From Acidobacteriota bacterium (GTDB lineage Bacteria > Acidobacteriota > Terriglobia > Terriglobales > Acidobacteriaceae): a stretch of 64,000 nt of DNA. The notes below the pieces were generated by a model. The model saw only the letters and a list, made by a program, of their open reading frames with translations. It did no database searches and was not told the DNA's origin. The stretch spans positions 620,001-684,000 of the forward strand of contig JABCZI010000001.1 in NCBI GenBank assembly GCA_013289765.1. The letters run 5' to 3'. Made by a program: the position numbers and the translations under genes. How positions within the stretch are numbered: position 1 is the stretch's first letter; every line of letters begins with the position of its first letter. Shown here one piece after another: positions 15,998 through 24,302 of the stretch.

Positions 15998-16471
15998 TCA
16001 CGCTGACTGTGGCTCACTTTGTTTCTTGCTTTTGGCCTTCTTCTTCGCGGCCTTGCGCCGCAGCTTGGCCATCCATTCGCGCGAGTACATGGTGCCCCGG
16101 CATTTGGGCGAGCCGCAGTGGCAGGGAGCGGGATCGTCATCGTCGTATAGGTTGTAATCCCAGAGCAGTTCCTCTCCGGCCCCGATGTCGCGCAAGGCAA
16201 AGATAAACGCGCGGTTTTTAATCTCATCAACTTCGCAGTTTGGATCACAGGAATGGTTCAGGTAGGCGCCGATTCCATGCCCGTCAATCACCGTCTTGCC
16301 GTCGTCTAAACCGTACAGATAGGTGCGGGGTGCGCCCGTATAGAGCCTGTCGGCCTCCTCGGGGGTGATGCGCGGACCACAATACTCGACAATGCGGGTA
16401 CCTTTACGAACCGGCGTCGTAGTGAACACACCGGCGGCATGAATGCGCGAAGGACGGACAACCAGAGCCAT
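15998..16471 (-). CDS. SET-domain lysine methyltransferase-like protein
   Basis: A 157-aa stand-alone SET protein using SAM to methylate lysine. It has the N-terminal GVFTTTPVRKGTRIVEYCG, the catalytic-core YLNHSCDPNC (NHSCxPN) and GEELLWDYN with the active-site Tyr. A post-SET zinc motif, CHCGSPKCRG, follows. The last about 25 residues are a Lys/Ala tail (RRKAAKKKAKSKK) that could bind nucleic acid. The ATG at 16471 is preferred over a TTG at 16492. The target is unknown. Such genes are scattered in soil bacteria. Confidence 0.85.
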   Translation of the reverse strand: MALVVRPSRIHAAGVFTTTPVRKGTRIVEYCGPRITPEEADRLYTGAPRTYLYGLDDGKTVIDGHGIGAYLNHSCDPNCEVDEIKNRAFIFALRDIGAGEELLWDYNLYDDDDPAPCHCGSPKCRGTMYSREWMAKLRRKAAKKKAKSKKQSEPQSA

Positions 16472-16727
16472 AGAACTAATCTCGCACGCCAAGGCGTTTC
16501 ATGGAAGATGGGAATGCGAAAAGAAAACAAATTTATGTCAGACCTTAGGGGTAAACGGCGCTACGAAGCCACCAGTCGGCTCTCTTGCGTGGCAATCGTT
16601 GCGGGCGGCAAATCCTCAACCGGAATCGGTATCCCCGAAGAAACCGGGAGGGGAACGGCTCATCCGTGATAGACTTCCCCGGCTCATGAACAAAGCATTG
16701 AAGCGAGCTTCTAAGAGGGGAATTCAG

Positions 16728-18122: not shown

Positions 18123-19184
18123 TTAGTCTTTTGATCGCGAAGAGGGTGTCGTGTAATGAAAGATGAGAGCGTCGAGTTTCGCCAGAAGCGCGCTGTTCCC
18201 TTGCCGGGGATAGCCAATAAGTTTTTCCCGATAGACGGGCAAGTTGTAGAGGAAAGATTCGACACGCTCTTTATTCAAATCTTCCCAGTAGGCTCCGTAG
18301 CCAGTTTTCTGCAACCAGTAAGCATTGAAGATCTGCTCGAACTGGTGCTCCACAGGAATCGCCAGGTACGGCTTGCCTAGATGTAACGCTTCGGTGACCA
18401 GCGAGAATCCGGAATTCGCAATGATCGCTTTGGCACCAGCGAGATCACGCAGGAATCCCTCGAGCGACGGTTTCTTGTAAAGGATGTTTCCTTCCTCTCC
18501 TTCGCGGCCGAAACCATAGGCAATAAAACGACCGCGAACCGCACTCAGTGTCTTGGCCAACAAAGGGGCGGGAGACGTTACGTATACAAGAATATGTTCC
18601 CCCTCTGTGACGACAACTTTAAGAATTTCCTCGCGTAGCAGTGGCGGAAAAAGAAAAGTATTTTGCTTCTTCACCGGTGCCGTGAAAAAAGAAATGACCA
18701 GATAAGCGTCGGCGTGGGGAGTCATCAGCCGCGTCACCAGCTTCGTGGCGGCAGCGTCGCGCCGGTACTGCTTGGGATAGGAGACGACTGCATTGGTGAG
18801 GCAATGCTGATTATCGATGGAAACAACCGGCAGACCCATCCCGTGCGCGACGTGACAGGTGAGCGGCTCGAAGTCGGTGATGACAAGATTGATCTGCCAG
18901 GTGGCGATCAGTTCCTTGAGCCGTTTCACGCTCTTTGCCGCCTGCGGCATTGTCATCAGGTTTCTGGCGATAGTGCGTTTATAGCGCACCCGATTATTCA
19001 CGTAGGCGATGCGGAAGCCGAAGATTTCTGTGACATCAAAATCGGAGCTGAGATTCCGTAGTCCGCGGTCGAATGACGCCACGTGCAGGGTGTGCCCTTG
19101 ATCTCGCAGATGGGTGAGGACTTCTTTCGCGCGCGTGGAATGACCGGCGCCCTCGCCATTCACTCCGTAGAGAATGTTCGCCAT
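18123..19184 (-). CDS. MurG-like glycosyltransferase
   Basis: A 353-aa GT-B glycosyltransferase. It starts MANILYGVNGEGAGHSTRA, with the Gly-rich nucleotide-sugar loop of the GT28/Glyco_trans_1_3 type. The C-terminal donor domain has AKAIIANSGFSLVTEALHLGKPYLAIPVEHQFEQ, matching the MurG-type donor site. The open frame extends upstream to 19298, but 19184 gives the normal start. It lies 43 nt after the radical SAM gene, last in the peptide-modification operon, and may glycosylate the product or a cell-surface carrier; this is inference. Confidence 0.8.
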   Translation of the reverse strand: MANILYGVNGEGAGHSTRAKEVLTHLRDQGHTLHVASFDRGLRNLSSDFDVTEIFGFRIAYVNNRVRYKRTIARNLMTMPQAAKSVKRLKELIATWQINLVITDFEPLTCHVAHGMGLPVVSIDNQHCLTNAVVSYPKQYRRDAAATKLVTRLMTPHADAYLVISFFTAPVKKQNTFLFPPLLREEILKVVVTEGEHILVYVTSPAPLLAKTLSAVRGRFIAYGFGREGEEGNILYKKPSLEGFLRDLAGAKAIIANSGFSLVTEALHLGKPYLAIPVEHQFEQIFNAYWLQKTGYGAYWEDLNKERVESFLYNLPVYREKLIGYPRQGNSALLAKLDALIFHYTTPSSRSKD

Positions 19185-19227
19185 ACGTCGAAGCAGTATA
19201 CGGCAGTAGTTGAAAGGAGCGAATGGG

Positions 19228-20406
19228 CTAGGATGCGATCGCCGAAACAGCTCCGCCGCCCATTTCCGCGAGCCTGCGGCCAGTGATCGCCGGAACAAGC
19301 TGGATTTGCACCAGGCGCGGTGGAGAATCCTGATCTTTATCTTTGTCTTTGTCTTGCTCTTGCTTCTTCGACAGCAGGTTCAGCGACGGAATGCCCGTGC
19401 GTGCGAAGGATTTCTCGCAATCTTGAGTAGAAGGACCGCGCATATTTCCTTCCATAAAAGCCAGCCCAGGGCACCGGGTGCAGGACCCGCCATGCGCACA
19501 TTTGGAACAACTGGACAAATCACGAAGACGGATCGACCGAACTTCTTTCAACCGCTCAGAGTGGCGCCAGATATCGATGAAACGCTGCTCACGCACATTG
19601 CCACAGGACAGGGGAAATTGAACACAAGGATAAAACTCGCCATAGGGAGAAACGTAACAGGAAGTGTGGCCGGCGCTGCAAGGCAAAGAGTTCAGGTCGT
19701 CTTCGTTCGCAGCACGCGGAGGGGCACAGAATTCGTCGACGTTGCCGATCAAATTTTCGTCGCGAAAAACGTTCCGGAGGTCAGACTCGCCAACGTTCAA
19801 CTCCAGGACGGTACGACCGCCATCCATCATCGGCGTGACGGTAGGATCCATCGTGTATTCTGCGCCAATTTCATTGGCTAGCGCTTGGGTACCGCGATAG
19901 TCGTGCATGTTCTCCGTCATCAGAACGTTCGCCATGACGACTCGGAGGCCTTGCGATTTGAGAAAGCGGATGGCCTTGAGCGATCGCTTCAACGAACCTG
20001 GAACTTTTGTGATGGCGTCGTGCACCTCCGGCCGGTGCGAATAAATGCTGACCTGGATCGATTGGACGCCGAGATCGCGCAGCCGCGCAGCCTGCGCTTC
20101 ACGGATCAGTACGGCGTTGGTTTTCAGCTTGATGCAGAAAGTAAGGTCGCGAGCGTATTCGAGAATCTCGAAGAAGTCCTTGCGCAGGAAAATCTCGCCG
20201 CCGCTAAGAGTCAGAATAAAGACACCGGAATCAGCCATCTCCTTCAACAGATGCTTGATTTCGGCAGTGGTCATCTCGCCGTGATCATCGTGATCGAGAT
20301 AGCAGTGAACGCACTGTTCGTTGCAGCGGTAAGTTAGATCAAGATGCACGCTGAAGGGAACGCCCAGTCGCAGCGCCCGCTCGCCCATCTCATGCATCAA
20401 GCTCAT
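19228..20406 (-). CDS. radical SAM/SPASM peptide-maturase-like enzyme
   Basis: A 392-aa radical SAM protein. CNEQCVHC (Cys 28, 32, 35) binds the SAM cluster and LSGGEIFLRKDF follows. The SPASM-like C-terminal part (about 250-345) is Cys-rich: LPCSAGHTSC, YPCVQFPLSCG, SSCSKCAHGGSCTRCPG. This layout is shared with PqqE, AlbA and other RiPP maturases. A repetitive KDKDKDQD linker precedes a short C-terminal tail. The start codon overlaps the PqqD-like stop as ATGA. With PqqD and a small Cys peptide in the same operon, peptide modification is the likely job. Confidence 0.9.
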   Translation of the reverse strand: MSLMHEMGERALRLGVPFSVHLDLTYRCNEQCVHCYLDHDDHGEMTTAEIKHLLKEMADSGVFILTLSGGEIFLRKDFFEILEYARDLTFCIKLKTNAVLIREAQAARLRDLGVQSIQVSIYSHRPEVHDAITKVPGSLKRSLKAIRFLKSQGLRVVMANVLMTENMHDYRGTQALANEIGAEYTMDPTVTPMMDGGRTVLELNVGESDLRNVFRDENLIGNVDEFCAPPRAANEDDLNSLPCSAGHTSCYVSPYGEFYPCVQFPLSCGNVREQRFIDIWRHSERLKEVRSIRLRDLSSCSKCAHGGSCTRCPGLAFMEGNMRGPSTQDCEKSFARTGIPSLNLLSKKQEQDKDKDKDQDSPPRLVQIQLVPAITGRRLAEMGGGAVSAIAS

Positions 20407-20729
20407 CGATATTGCTCCTGAACGGTCAGGTTTCTGGTGGAGGAGATCGGTTTCTCCGAAATCAGAAGGATGCCGTGCCTGGCCAAATCCTCGGCCAGCG
20501 CCTCGGCGTCACGGATAGCCTGTTCAGCCTCAACTTCGAACTCTGAACATATGTGGCGCTCGACAATTGCATCGAGTGCCGTGATACCATCCGCAGCCTG
20601 CCACAGAACGGTCGCGGTTGGATTCAGTGTAAACAACGTCGATCCCTGAGCGGACATGACCAGCGTTTCTTCACCCAGCTTACGGGCTGCGATTCGCGGA
20701 CTGCGCGCGACGTAGAGTTTCTTTTTCAT
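20403..20729 (-). CDS. PqqD-like peptide-carrier protein
   Basis: A 108-aa PqqD-family (RiPP recognition element) protein, begun at MKKKLYVARSP. Features are RKLGEETLVMSAQGSTLFTLNPTATVLWQAADG, then a helical C-terminal part ending in DLARHGILLI. PqqD domains bind the leader of a precursor peptide and present it to the radical SAM enzyme. The start overlaps the kinase-like gene's stop (ATGA) and its own stop overlaps the radical SAM start (ATGA), so all three should be co-translated. A TTG at 20744 is a less likely start. Confidence 0.88.
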   Translation of the reverse strand: MKKKLYVARSPRIAARKLGEETLVMSAQGSTLFTLNPTATVLWQAADGITALDAIVERHICSEFEVEAEQAIRDAEALAEDLARHGILLISEKPISSTRNLTVQEQYR

Positions 20730-21541
20730 CCAATCATCTCCCAAACTCTTGCATCCGGCAGAAAGGTGAGCCTCTGCACGGGAACGCGGTCAACAAAATC
20801 ACAGGCGGCCTTAAAGGCACACTGAACCAATTCATGATCTTCGGCAAAGAAAAGCATATTGGCCAGCAGTCCGCGAGCGGCATCCGAGGTAGTGATCGGA
20901 TCGATGCGATTCTCCGGCCCTTGAGCTAATAGATAGAGCGCTTCCACCGGTGCCGAACAGTTCTCTCCGATCTTGGCCAGTTCGCCGGTGAAGGGCGTGC
21001 CGAAAGCAACATAACCCTGTTCCAGTTTGCGCACGTAGGAGATCTCATCGGTCAGAAGAGTCGCATCAGATGGAGCGAGCCGGGAAATCGTTGTCTTCCC
21101 CGCTCCAGACACACCGGCAAACAAAAACGCCTTTCCATTGCGGATGGCGCTGGCAGAATGCAAAAGAAATCCGCCTTGTTTTGCCAGCACTAGCGTGTGC
21201 ACGATGCGCAGAACGGCATCAATTGAGTAGGGATTAGCAGTCTGGCGAATGCTGCCGTGGCGCGTGGCAGGTTCCCACTCGGCGCGAAAATCGCCTCGAT
21301 CCAGCAGCCATCGTCCAGAACGCTGGGTAACACTGAGATCCGCATCCGGACCGCGGAACGCTGGAGGCAGGAGGTCGACATCCAAATCGAATTCCGCATG
21401 CGCCTCCGCACTCACGAACCCATCGTAGCGCTGGTGCAGCATCTCCAGAAAATCCGCATCGATGGTGTTCAACCGGATGGCGACATCGCCAATGGCGATC
21501 ACTACGCTGAAGCGTTCGATTTGTGCGGCTACCCCTGGCAC
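20726..21541 (-). CDS. HPr kinase-like protein
   Basis: A 271-aa protein related to the C-terminal domain of HPr(Ser) kinase/phosphorylase. LLHSASAIRNGKAFLFAG leads into the Walker A GVSGAGKTT (about 143-151), then TLLTDEISYV resembling the Walker B/catalytic region. The first 110 residues are family-specific. Kinases of this kind accompany PqqD-like proteins in peptide clusters of several phyla (HprK-related families, from memory). What is phosphorylated is unknown. GTG start; it overlaps the S26 peptidase gene by 13 nt. Confidence 0.85.
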   Translation of the reverse strand: MPGVAAQIERFSVVIAIGDVAIRLNTIDADFLEMLHQRYDGFVSAEAHAEFDLDVDLLPPAFRGPDADLSVTQRSGRWLLDRGDFRAEWEPATRHGSIRQTANPYSIDAVLRIVHTLVLAKQGGFLLHSASAIRNGKAFLFAGVSGAGKTTISRLAPSDATLLTDEISYVRKLEQGYVAFGTPFTGELAKIGENCSAPVEALYLLAQGPENRIDPITTSDAARGLLANMLFFAEDHELVQCAFKAACDFVDRVPVQRLTFLPDARVWEMIG

Positions 21542-22029
21542 GGAAGCCTCGATTCCCTTTGAGTTCGAAACTTGCTGATCATGTAGACGAAAACGCGCGC
21601 CGCAAACGCTGACCGTCGAGTAATCTGCGCGGCGAGGCGTTCGATCGCGCTCAATTTTGCGGAAACCGCCATACTTTTCCCCGACCGAACAAGCTCAGTT
21701 ACGCGCCCCAACAGCTCACTCTCAATTACTGGCCGATCTGGCGTTGCCATCGCATCGCCCTGTGTGATCCAGAATCGATCGCCGGAACTTCGCCCCAGAG
21801 AGACAACGCGGTGAGCACACAGCCTGCCCTCGCGCCCTACCAGCGCGATGTCTCCCACCCGAAAACGATCGGAACTCACGCGTTCCACCACCAGCGTGTC
21901 CCCGGACCAAACAGTTGGAAACATGCTCCAACCCGTTGCAGCAAAACGGAGGCTGTCAAACGAGCGCAGAACCTCGCCCGCAAGTTCGCACTTTGCACTG
22001 GCGGCCAAATCATTGCTATGTGGTCTCAT
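21529..22029 (-). CDS. S26-type signal-peptidase-like protein
   Basis: A 166-aa S24/S26-fold peptidase. The nucleophile is in ATGWSMFPT (Ser 35), followed by SGDTLVVERV and VGDIALVGREG. The second catalytic position reads CAHRVV, a His as in archaeal/ER-type S26B enzymes instead of the bacterial Lys. A hydrophobic C-terminal stretch (FAARVFVYMISKF) may touch the membrane. The ATG at 22029 overlaps the stop of the 55-aa peptide gene as ATGA, which decides the start. Likely role: trimming that peptide (inference). Confidence 0.8.
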   Translation of the reverse strand: MRPHSNDLAASAKCELAGEVLRSFDSLRFAATGWSMFPTVWSGDTLVVERVSSDRFRVGDIALVGREGRLCAHRVVSLGRSSGDRFWITQGDAMATPDRPVIESELLGRVTELVRSGKSMAVSAKLSAIERLAAQITRRSAFAARVFVYMISKFRTQRESRLPCQG

Positions 22030-22193
22030 GACGAACTTGCCGGTAACAAATTGAAGCAAGTTTGTGTAAGAGGTTGCTTGGCGCAGGTAAGGGCGGACGT
22101 CACAAAAACCTCCTCATAGCGAAAGTTCGGCCTCTCATAGGTTTTCTTCGCCGCGCCTTCCTGCCCTTCACTGGACGAATGATTGATGACCAT
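22026..22193 (-). CDS. putative 55-aa RiPP-type precursor peptide
   Basis: A short gene with an excellent Shine-Dalgarno, GAGAGGAAG, 6 nt before the ATG. The peptide starts MVINHSSSEGQEGAAKK; a charged leader-like part has TYERPNFRYEEVF; the C-terminal half is Thr/Ser/Cys-rich (VTSALTCAKQPLTQTC, then FNLLPASSS) with two Cys and no charged residue after Lys39. It sits 18 nt after the 696-aa gene and its stop overlaps the peptidase start (ATGA). Size, leader/core contrast and the neighbouring PqqD, radical SAM and peptidase genes all point to a modified-peptide precursor. No homology test was possible. Confidence 0.75.
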   Translation of the reverse strand: MVINHSSSEGQEGAAKKTYERPNFRYEEVFVTSALTCAKQPLTQTCFNLLPASSS

Positions 22194-22211
22194 ATTTGAC
22201 TTCCTCTCAAC

Positions 22212-24302
22212 CTACTTTAGTGCTGCCTGAGACGCCTGCATTGCGCAGCCGCCATTGGTACCTGACGTTGCGCAAGTTTGATTACTCAAAGTCGAAAAAT
22301 ACACTTGAGAGGCACCCAATAACGTGCCCGAGCCTACGATATTGTCGATGATTATGCCGCTGGTACCACCGGCGGAAGGCAGGCCAAACGCGGAAACCGG
22401 CCCCTCATTCGTCCAAGTCAAGGTGGAGTCCGCAGTTGTACTCCCCGCTACGGTACTCCAAGTCGGCTGGGTGCCCCCGGAATTGCCGCCTCCGTGAGAC
22501 GTGGTAACAGTTTCCAGGTTGTTGTTGCTATCCAGGATTGTGCTGCCCACCGGATAGTGGGTAAGACGGACCCAGACTCCTGTCGCGATCTGGGTCGTAG
22601 GCCCTTGGTTGAACCACGTAACCGTGCCGTCGGTCGTGGAAGTTCCCGCGCCGCCCCAAACAGGCTGGGTGGTTCCAGACGTACCCGCAGCCGTGACCAC
22701 TTGGATTTTGAAGTTGCTATCCAGCACTTCCTGGCCGAGGGCATATACAGTGGACTTTTGCCAAGGCGTGTTCTTAAAGTTGTAGACGCATCCCGCGGCG
22801 CACCCCATTGCGATCCCGTTGGCGTCCGCACTAACAAATAACCACTCCGCAGGACCTCCTGCAGCGTTGGGATTCCGGATGTCGGTTACGGGGGAACACG
22901 GCGTAGTACTCGTTGATAGAACCGGTCCAGTAGTTACAGTCCCGAGAGCGCCGGCCACCACCGCGACTTTATACAATGTGGGGGGACCGCCGGTGTTGCC
23001 GCAAACATACAAATTTCCCGTGGCGGTCGCTGAGTTCAGGAAGGTACTGTCAAAGCCGCCAATATACATTGGGTTTGGCGTCGTCCCGGTGGACGTGCTA
23101 ATGCCGACGGCCTTCTTCACTCCTTTGTTGCCGGCCACGAAGTTGGAGGCTAGGACGTAGACAGCGCTGCAGTTGGCACCGCCGGTGCAAGCGCCGGAGC
23201 CGTCGCTCGATGCGAAAACAAAAACCACCCCCGCGCTCACATCCACAATTGGCCCTTGCACGAAGCCAGTGCCATAATCCAGTTGGCCCGAGGCAGTCAC
23301 GGTTCCGCTGGAACTCACTCGATAAAAAAATCCGCCGGCATCTCCCACAAAAGTATTTCCCGACGACCGATCGTGAACGGCCACACTGAGAGCCTTCGAT
23401 GTGGCATTCACTTGCACAGGCCATCCTCCGGTTCTCACTTCGGCAGGCGTTCCCTTGAACACTCCGGTAAACTGATGCAGCCAACCCGAACTATCCCCTA
23501 CATACGCGGCATCCTGGCTGTACACATAGAAGACCGGAGAGAGCGTGTCGTCATGAACGGTGCCGACCGAATCGGTGAGGGTGATGGATGCCATGCACGG
23601 AGCTGTACAGGTCGGATAAGCTGCGTTCGTCACCGCCGTTGGAGTGCCCGGACTGGTCACAGTCTGCGTAGTTGAGGCCACCCACTTCAACATGACGAAC
23701 CTCGCGTTCCCTGCAAGCGTTTGCACAAAAGCAACTTGCTTTCCATCAAATGAGATGGCCACGGAGGATGCGATCTTGGCGCCGGTGTTGTACGCCCAGT
23801 AAGTTGTGGGCACGGTCCCTGTACAACCCGAATAAAGATTGTCGTAAGCAACAATGCTGGCTTTTGTTGGCGACCCGGTGAGGCCCGTGTTGAAGACAGT
23901 GAAATCGGGCTGAGTGGCGCTGCTGCAGTTGGCCGTTGTAAGCGAAAATGAATACTTAGCAGGATAATTTCCCGCGCCCACAGTGGCGCCGGTACCCATG
24001 TTCTCGGCCCAATCGTGCCCTAGATGGATGTTTTCGCTGGATCCAGGCTCCTCCGCCGGTGAGGGCATCGTCATTTCGCGACGGTACAGTTGCTGCCAAT
24101 AGCGAACGTCCTGCTGGACCCGGCTGATTTGATCCTGCGTAGAGGGCTTGGAGAAGATGAGATGTTGATGGCTGAAATCTGTAGTTAGCGGAACGGATTC
24201 CTGCGAGTCAGCGGAAGCTTGCCCTTGCGAAATGGCGGAAAAGCTCAGCACTCCAACGACTAAAATGATCAGCCATAATAAAACACGCAGACTCGTTCTC
24301 AT
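22212..24302 (-). CDS. large secreted protein with two tail-type repeats
   Basis: A 696-aa exported protein, first gene of the peptide operon. The signal peptide ends ISQGQA. Residues about 110-520 are Thr/Ser/Gly-rich beta-strand sequence resembling a propeller or surface protein (VAISFDGKQVAFVQ, AAYVGDSSGWLHQF, GNTFVGDAGGFFYRV), with several Cys pairs. Residues about 540-665 hold two 60-residue repeats of the type W...YALGQEVLDSN...TSGTTQPVWGG...DGTVTWFNQGP. The Shine-Dalgarno GGGGGAGG is strong. It may be the surface partner or target of the modification system; I do not know the function. Confidence 0.75.
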   Translation of the reverse strand: MRTSLRVLLWLIILVVGVLSFSAISQGQASADSQESVPLTTDFSHQHLIFSKPSTQDQISRVQQDVRYWQQLYRREMTMPSPAEEPGSSENIHLGHDWAENMGTGATVGAGNYPAKYSFSLTTANCSSATQPDFTVFNTGLTGSPTKASIVAYDNLYSGCTGTVPTTYWAYNTGAKIASSVAISFDGKQVAFVQTLAGNARFVMLKWVASTTQTVTSPGTPTAVTNAAYPTCTAPCMASITLTDSVGTVHDDTLSPVFYVYSQDAAYVGDSSGWLHQFTGVFKGTPAEVRTGGWPVQVNATSKALSVAVHDRSSGNTFVGDAGGFFYRVSSSGTVTASGQLDYGTGFVQGPIVDVSAGVVFVFASSDGSGACTGGANCSAVYVLASNFVAGNKGVKKAVGISTSTGTTPNPMYIGGFDSTFLNSATATGNLYVCGNTGGPPTLYKVAVVAGALGTVTTGPVLSTSTTPCSPVTDIRNPNAAGGPAEWLFVSADANGIAMGCAAGCVYNFKNTPWQKSTVYALGQEVLDSNFKIQVVTAAGTSGTTQPVWGGAGTSTTDGTVTWFNQGPTTQIATGVWVRLTHYPVGSTILDSNNNLETVTTSHGGGNSGGTQPTWSTVAGSTTADSTLTWTNEGPVSAFGLPSAGGTSGIIIDNIVGSGTLLGASQVYFSTLSNQTCATSGTNGGCAMQASQAALK

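Follow-up and report, generated by a model that had tools for sequence, protein, structure and literature searches.

Here we report a compact operon in a 64,000-nucleotide stretch of a genome from a soil member of the Acidobacteriaceae (assembly GCA_013289765.1, contig JABCZI010000001.1, positions 620,001 to 684,000; hereafter the window), which on balance appears to encode a set for the biosynthesis of a ribosomally synthesized and post-translationally modified peptide (RiPP). In this set the leader of a precursor would be bound by a RiPP recognition element (RRE), a serine phosphorylated, a cysteine-containing core modified by radical chemistry and the leader cleaved off by an S26-type peptidase. 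Six minus-strand genes run from 24302 to 19228, encoding an exported beta-propeller protein, a 55-residue peptide, the S26 peptidase, a P-loop kinase, a PqqD-like protein and a radical S-adenosylmethionine (SAM)/SPASM enzyme; the last four are referred to below as the cassette. An earlier note on this DNA, made from the sequence alone, had named the peptide and the enzyme genes, all of which are present where it placed them, and had proposed the peptide as the substrate. That proposal gains support, since the peptide is conserved, adjoins the enzymes and carries in its leader the motif bound by lasso-type RREs. The exported propeller gene just upstream, which the note had overlooked, is a recurrent partner.

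Relatives of the system were collected in two ways. A kinase-first search gave matches at 1e-5 or better in 117 of 396 genomes of the phylum and in 106 of 398 of the window's family (at 1e-45 or better in 89 of these 398), from which a sample of 66 close and 14 distant loci, not all of them, was chosen. A peptide-first scan, which required the pattern F[VE]TxALxCGK and would miss the window peptide's own CAK, yielded 132 confirmed relatives, the best 80 of which form the peptide-first set. Genomes may recur in both sets, and the loci are therefore not all independent; a few peptide-first records are labelled, by record title alone, as other phyla (Binatus, Burkholderiales, Nevskia, Proteobacteria). 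The earlier note had made its case depend on a conserved short gene in relatives, and a strong copy of the peptide is found in 54 of the 66 close kinase-first loci, usually directly ahead of the S26 gene (in L131, by our locus numbering, a propeller gene sits between the two), while 63 of the 80 peptide-first loci carry a kinase or radical SAM gene. These counts (54/66 and 63/80) are what is looked for in an RRE-dependent RiPP, namely that the gene for a short precursor keeps its place next to an RRE and a modifying enzyme. In one close locus (L128) the peptide is split over frames, and 11 of the 66 have no local copy; six of these 11 genomes carry one on another contig. Across leader residues 17-36 of 30 relatives, differences at codon positions 1, 2 and 3 stand at 0.197, 0.212 and 0.563, and these third-position changes, together with conservation in relatives, argue that the peptide gene is translated, beyond chance. 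An NCBIfam search with nine of the peptides gave no match.

The anatomy of the peptide is simple, with a leader holding Y19-x-x-P22-x-F24 and a core of the form T36-C37-A-K39-x6-C46-x8-S55 in the window copy. Conservation of Cys37, Gly38 and Lys39 among the 80 peptide-first loci follows from the construction of the scan pattern, outside which the second cysteine and the terminal serine lie. When hits to the peptide profile were pooled from three sets and cut at 50 bits or more, 103 distinct peptide tails remained; copies that are too weak, split or degenerate (that of L128 and the second ones of L131 and L207) are not among them. All 103 share the leader motif YxxPx[FYLV], exactly two core cysteines and C-x-K, and 102 end in serine, as do 92 of 877 neighbouring open reading frames (ORFs) taken for comparison; before the 50-bit filter, 80 of 82 copies in the peptide-first set had the terminal serine, the exceptions being the degenerate L207 copy and L215. 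The boundary T/V/A-x-A-L-x-C is kept in 101 of the 103, the Cys-to-Cys gap is nine residues in 85, and in 83 the end comes 7 positions after the second cysteine. An alignment of 30 peptides has Y19, P22, F30, A34, L35, C37, K39, C46 and S55 in common, with a core that is variable between its fixed residues. The core had been described as uncharged, which is true of the window copy; many relatives have R/K-rich C-terminal tails such as NRKTS. Signal peptidases follow a small-x-Ala rule, which would place the cut after Ala34. This is one residue off the register of lasso leaders (Tyr -17, Pro -14, Leu -12; PMC10368454, which, like PMC9266682 and PMC7470986, is drawn on here through selected passages), in which the core would start at residue 36, directly before Cys37. 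A reading of T-x-A-L-x-C as a lipobox was dropped, as by eye no hydrophobic stretch stands ahead of the motif.

The distant loci, in which the kinase is ~30% identical, hold different peptides. A profile built from five of these (two of them identical, and all five counted among the peptides below) matches 50 of 396 phylum genomes. In the 30 loci that were read, all 34 peptides end in serine (32) or threonine (2), in 30 of the 34 the first cysteine opens a C-x-K or C-x-R motif, and a radical SAM match lies within the 1.5-kb flank in 19 loci. The kinase is absent from view within these short flanks, and four second-family peptides adjoin a kinase in wider loci (L042, L045, L046 and L047). Eight of the 14 distant kinase loci (L041-L047, L053) have a candidate peptide, each ending in serine, and no peptide was seen in the other six. 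This second family supports the rule of a terminal serine as the putative target. Its members (L247-L276) follow the pattern KKxYEKP...EARA...CxK...C...S, at times in two tandem copies, and adjoin PqqD and radical SAM genes in other acidobacterial families.

By profile comparison the PqqD-like protein lies closer to the lasso RREs TbiB1 (2.3e-7) and TfuB1 (1e-5), which recognise a YxxPxL leader (PMC10368454), than to PqqD of pyrroloquinoline quinone (PQQ) biosynthesis (0.018). Kinase residues H128, G143, G148, K149, T150, D165 and E166 occur in 61 of 61 sequences and make up most of the motif of lasso kinases, which in BsfK is H148-G163-G166-G168-K169-S170-D186-D187 (PMC10368454), with threonine here in place of its serine. 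Its predicted model (predicted local distance difference test, pLDDT, 87.7) has the PEPCK/HPrK fold; in a VIA-align comparison covering Foldseek's top chains, PEPCK was matched with Z 15.8 over 235 residues, and HPrK was matched at ~1e-4. The earlier description as HPr-kinase-like stands for fold and motif only, there being no HPr-kinase Pfam match for the window kinase and a closer fold in PEPCK; scores against HprK-related kinases A and B (TIGR04352 and TIGR04355) are 23 and 19.8 of 200 bits, under cut-off. For the peptidase, Ser45 and His83 are present in 47 of 47 sequences and the closest profile is SEC11 (5.2e-8), while none of 24 sequences contains a 19-residue stretch above 1.6 in hydropathy, i.e. 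a transmembrane segment, and it could therefore act in the cytosol. The radical SAM enzyme, whose closest solved relative is SkfB (2.6e-22), keeps the SAM-cluster cysteines C28, C32 and C35 in 55 of 55 sequences and eight further cysteines in 55 or 56 of 56, so that all cysteines of SPASM are present, and its gene was found as an ORF of at least 90 residues in 65 of 81 kinase-first loci.

From gene content, order, conservation, motifs and associations we infer the reactions, their order, the export of the product and its role as follows. The PqqD-like RRE would bind the YxxPxF leader of the 55-residue precursor and present it to the enzymes; the kinase would, like those of lasso peptides, phosphorylate the C-terminal serine; the radical SAM/SPASM enzyme would modify the core, most likely by a thioether or similar cross-link, within the pattern x-C-x-K, mostly x7, C, mostly x6, S; and the soluble S26 peptidase would remove the leader at the T-x-A/L-x-C boundary to leave a core of ~20 residues. 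Relatives would in addition secrete the product through an ABC-2 exporter, and their phosphoserine may be decorated by a PF14907 protein; the recurrent exported propeller is the likely site of action. The earlier suggestion that the peptide is perhaps phosphorylated is sharpened to a predicted target, the near-invariant C-terminal serine. Several observations weigh against this pathway. For five of the 66 close loci no peptide turned up anywhere in the genome, the S26 gene was detected near only 3 of the 14 distant cassettes, and 21 of the 63 peptide-first cassette loci have no propeller at a distance of 6 kb or less. The RRE scores far under the cut-offs of the NCBIfam lasso chaperones (25.1 of 70 and 19.2 of 80 bits). 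The kinase has a fold closer to PEPCK than to HPrK and glutamate for the last aspartate of the BsfK motif, and its G146, the counterpart of BsfK G166, is conserved below 95%; BsfK G166A retained activity (PMC10368454).

The product of the pathway probably works in partnership with the exported propeller, as its genomic surroundings suggest. Of the 63 peptide-first cassette loci, 42 have the propeller at most 6 kb from the peptide, and 11 of 19 peptide copies without a nearby cassette (10 loci) adjoin one, although six of these ten loci share a recR-like neighbour and so represent few independent events. Among 20 genomes, 16 of 25 peptides (E <1e-8) are within ~4 kb of a propeller match, with 0 to 9 such matches per genome, pieces counted. 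A PF14907 gene occurs anywhere in the locus in 34 of the 63 cassette loci (and in 36 of the 81 kinase-first loci) and an ABC-2 permease in 13, at least one of propeller, PF14907 and permease being present in 53; two in-trans peptides adjoin an ABC-2 exporter (L238, L239). In one cultured relative, a record of Granulicella mallensis (L201) has the peptide, all four cassette genes and the propeller. A serious competitor, to which we give somewhat less than even odds, takes the product for a sactipeptide-like antimicrobial or signal that is secreted, and the propeller for just a frequent neighbour or an immunity or receptor protein. SkfB, the nearest solved relative of the radical enzyme, makes a secreted killing factor, and the variable core and the recurrence of exporter genes (13/63) would both fit such a role, whereas the propellers beside cassette-free peptide copies, few as the independent events are, and the closeness of 16 of 25 peptides to one of few propeller genes speak for partnership. 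A bolder extension of the partnership, which we consider improbable, is that a radically cross-linked, C-terminally phosphorylated mini-peptide might be exported and built into the propeller as a removable prosthetic subunit, with one enzyme set serving several propellers of one genome, each with its own peptide gene, in trans.

The propeller gene of the window is single copy in its genome and has no Pfam match; its predicted model (pLDDT 78) has a beta-propeller fold, the best match among Foldseek's top chains being Cake8, eight-bladed by name (Z 31.4 over 314 residues). Inserted in it, at 22300-22830 of the minus strand, is a repeated module of the form GTSG..P.W....DGTVTW, present twice; such modules occur in propellers of the window's genus and are absent from the more distant propellers aligned. 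The C-terminal tail (CAVQASQSALQ-like) was considered as a tag and dropped, because the predicted model puts it in the closing strand. Peptide and propeller stand together without a cassette beside the recR-like gene, identified by eye, in L200, L205, L207, L217, L221 and L223, a cassette-free setting that is conserved within one lineage.

The choice of the C-terminal serine as kinase target also has an alternative, namely that the kinase acts on a core serine or threonine, or on another protein, and that the terminal serine serves cleavage, export or binding; this we judge unlikely. Precedents exist on both sides: PadeK phosphorylates its precursor on the C-terminal serine, a position where several phosphates can be attached by ThcoK and SyanK (PMC9266682), while BsfK, also a lasso-cluster kinase, instead targets Ser3 of the core (PMC10368454), a point against our assignment. 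Cores of the peptide family often hold several serines or threonines, and cassette-free copies keep the terminal serine in 17 of 19 cases, although enzymes may act on these in trans. However, the terminal serine is the sole near-invariant hydroxyl residue of the core (102/103), it is replaced by threonine only (2/34) in the diverged family, and BsfA, with a kinase that targets another position, has aspartate as its last residue (PMC10368454).

A lasso pathway, intact or decayed, with peptidase and cyclase supplied in trans and the radical SAM enzyme as an accessory, would account for the leader motif, the type of RRE, the motif of the kinase and PF14907, each of which is found in lasso clusters that bear a kinase. 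This reading is very improbable and was rejected on the absence of the lasso peptidase family PF13471 (lasso cyclase being outside the search): the window's own genome has no match, nor have 16 of the 20 genomes searched, and none of the matches in the other four is on a cassette contig. The detection of a radical SAM gene in 65 of 81 loci and a two-cysteine core fixed in length also speak against it.

The peptide and cassette genes (22193-19228; Table 1) overlap in series, and three junctions are ATGA, at the peptide stop and S26 ATG (22029), between kinase and PqqD-like genes (20729) and between PqqD-like and radical SAM genes (20406); the S26 and kinase genes overlap by 13 bases (21541/21529). 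Upstream of the peptide gene (22193-22026) stands AGAGGAAG. The S26 ORF opens with TTG at 22059, its ATG being at 22029. Downstream, the glycosyltransferase more likely starts at ATG 19184 than at TTG 19298, which leaves 43 bases after the radical SAM stop. The earlier note had counted it as a member of the system, a view that fares badly: full matches occur in only 2 of 160 other loci, L087 has a 17-residue piece at a contig end, and the gene is a lineage-specific neighbour outside the conserved set. Its position, directly downstream of the radical SAM gene, is taken by PF14907 in 15 of the 63 loci. In the window's own genome a single PF14907 gene exceeds the cut-off (215.8 bits), and it lies on contig C9 (L142, L144), far from the cassette; in pseudomycoidin, the nucleotidyltransferase homologue PsmN has been linked to hexoses on phosphorylated serine (PMC9266682). 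A small protein at 15998-16492 (minus strand), SET-domain-like by eye, has relatives near the cassette in 10 of the 81 loci.

Table 1. Genes of the operon and its downstream neighbour in the window, with the basis of each assignment.
Feature	Position	Strand	Basis
Exported beta-propeller protein, 696 aa, recurrent partner gene	22212..24302	minus	predicted fold
Precursor peptide (putative), 55 aa	22026..22193	minus	conserved family and coding signature
S26-type peptidase, soluble by hydropathy	21529..22029	minus	Ser45 and His83 (numbered from TTG 22059)
P-loop kinase, PEPCK/HPrK fold	20726..21541	minus	conserved motif and predicted fold
PqqD-like RRE, lasso B1 type	20403..20729	minus	PF05402, 50 bits; profile match to TbiB1
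Radical SAM/SPASM enzyme	19228..20406	minus	Radical_SAM, 82.6 bits; SPASM, 42.8 bits
Glycosyltransferase, MJ1255 type	18123..19184	minus	PF13528, 437 bits

Together, these analyses again leave the operon unmatched to any named RiPP class, as the earlier note had held, and suggest as its relatives the kinase-bearing lasso clusters, for recognition and phosphorylation, and SkfB-like systems, for the radical enzyme. The cassette, which is frequent in Acidobacteriota, would join two RiPP toolkits that are usually apart, the leader, RRE and C-terminal-serine kinase of lasso peptides and a radical SAM/SPASM enzyme on a two-cysteine core, and, should the modification turn out to be new, would constitute a novel class of RiPP. 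In the open-licence literature, covered through titles, abstract openings and selected passages, we found no description of this combination.

Among known systems the kinase-bearing lasso clusters (paeninodin/PadeK, ThcoK, SyanK, pseudomycoidin PsmK/PsmN and BsfK) share with the cassette a YxxPx(L/F) leader, a discrete B1-type RRE, a P-loop kinase with the H-G-G-K-S/T-D motif and a C-terminal serine on the precursor; many relatives of the cassette also have the PF14907 nucleotidyltransferase and ABC transporter of these clusters. Unlike them, the cassette has a radical SAM/SPASM enzyme and an S26 peptidase, its precursor has a fixed two-cysteine core, and its own genome is without PF13471. The pairing of the RRE type with a radical SAM enzyme is known from RRE-Finder, in which ~300 lasso-type RREs beside radical SAM enzymes were counted as false positives of the lasso model (PMC7470986); the main text mentions no kinase, S26 peptidase or propeller, and its passages on these RREs contain no description of a terminal-serine precursor or of other partners. 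SynChlorMet (NCBIfam ScmC-ScmF) is similar in having a kinase-like ScmC, which is the best NCBIfam match of the cassette kinase, a PqqD-like ScmD and radical SAM/SPASM proteins, and was rejected on scores under the cut-offs (ScmC 44.3/125, ScmD 20.5/100, ScmE 102.2/400 bits), as was GeoRSP (PqqD 24.7/100, radical SAM 103.8/400 bits). PQQ biosynthesis was rejected likewise (PqqD 14.1/46, PqqE 100.1/381.35 bits), the genome having a separate pqq-like operon. This run of pqqB, pqqC, pqqD and pqqE-like genes, recognised by eye at L145:5086-8215 (contig C1, ~435-438 kb), accounts for the second PqqD match of the genome. The glutamate and tyrosine of PqqA are also missing from the peptide core here. 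Compared with SkfB and other sactipeptide maturases, the cassette has a separate RRE, an S26 peptidase and a kinase; of the sactipeptides, whose mark is a thioether from cysteine to an alpha-carbon, it shows the kinship of its radical enzyme with SkfB. Finally, PQQ biosynthesis and the maturation of quinohemoprotein amine dehydrogenase combine a radical SAM/SPASM enzyme, a peptide and a beta-propeller as the place of use, and the cassette, with its propeller as the likely site of action, resembles both.

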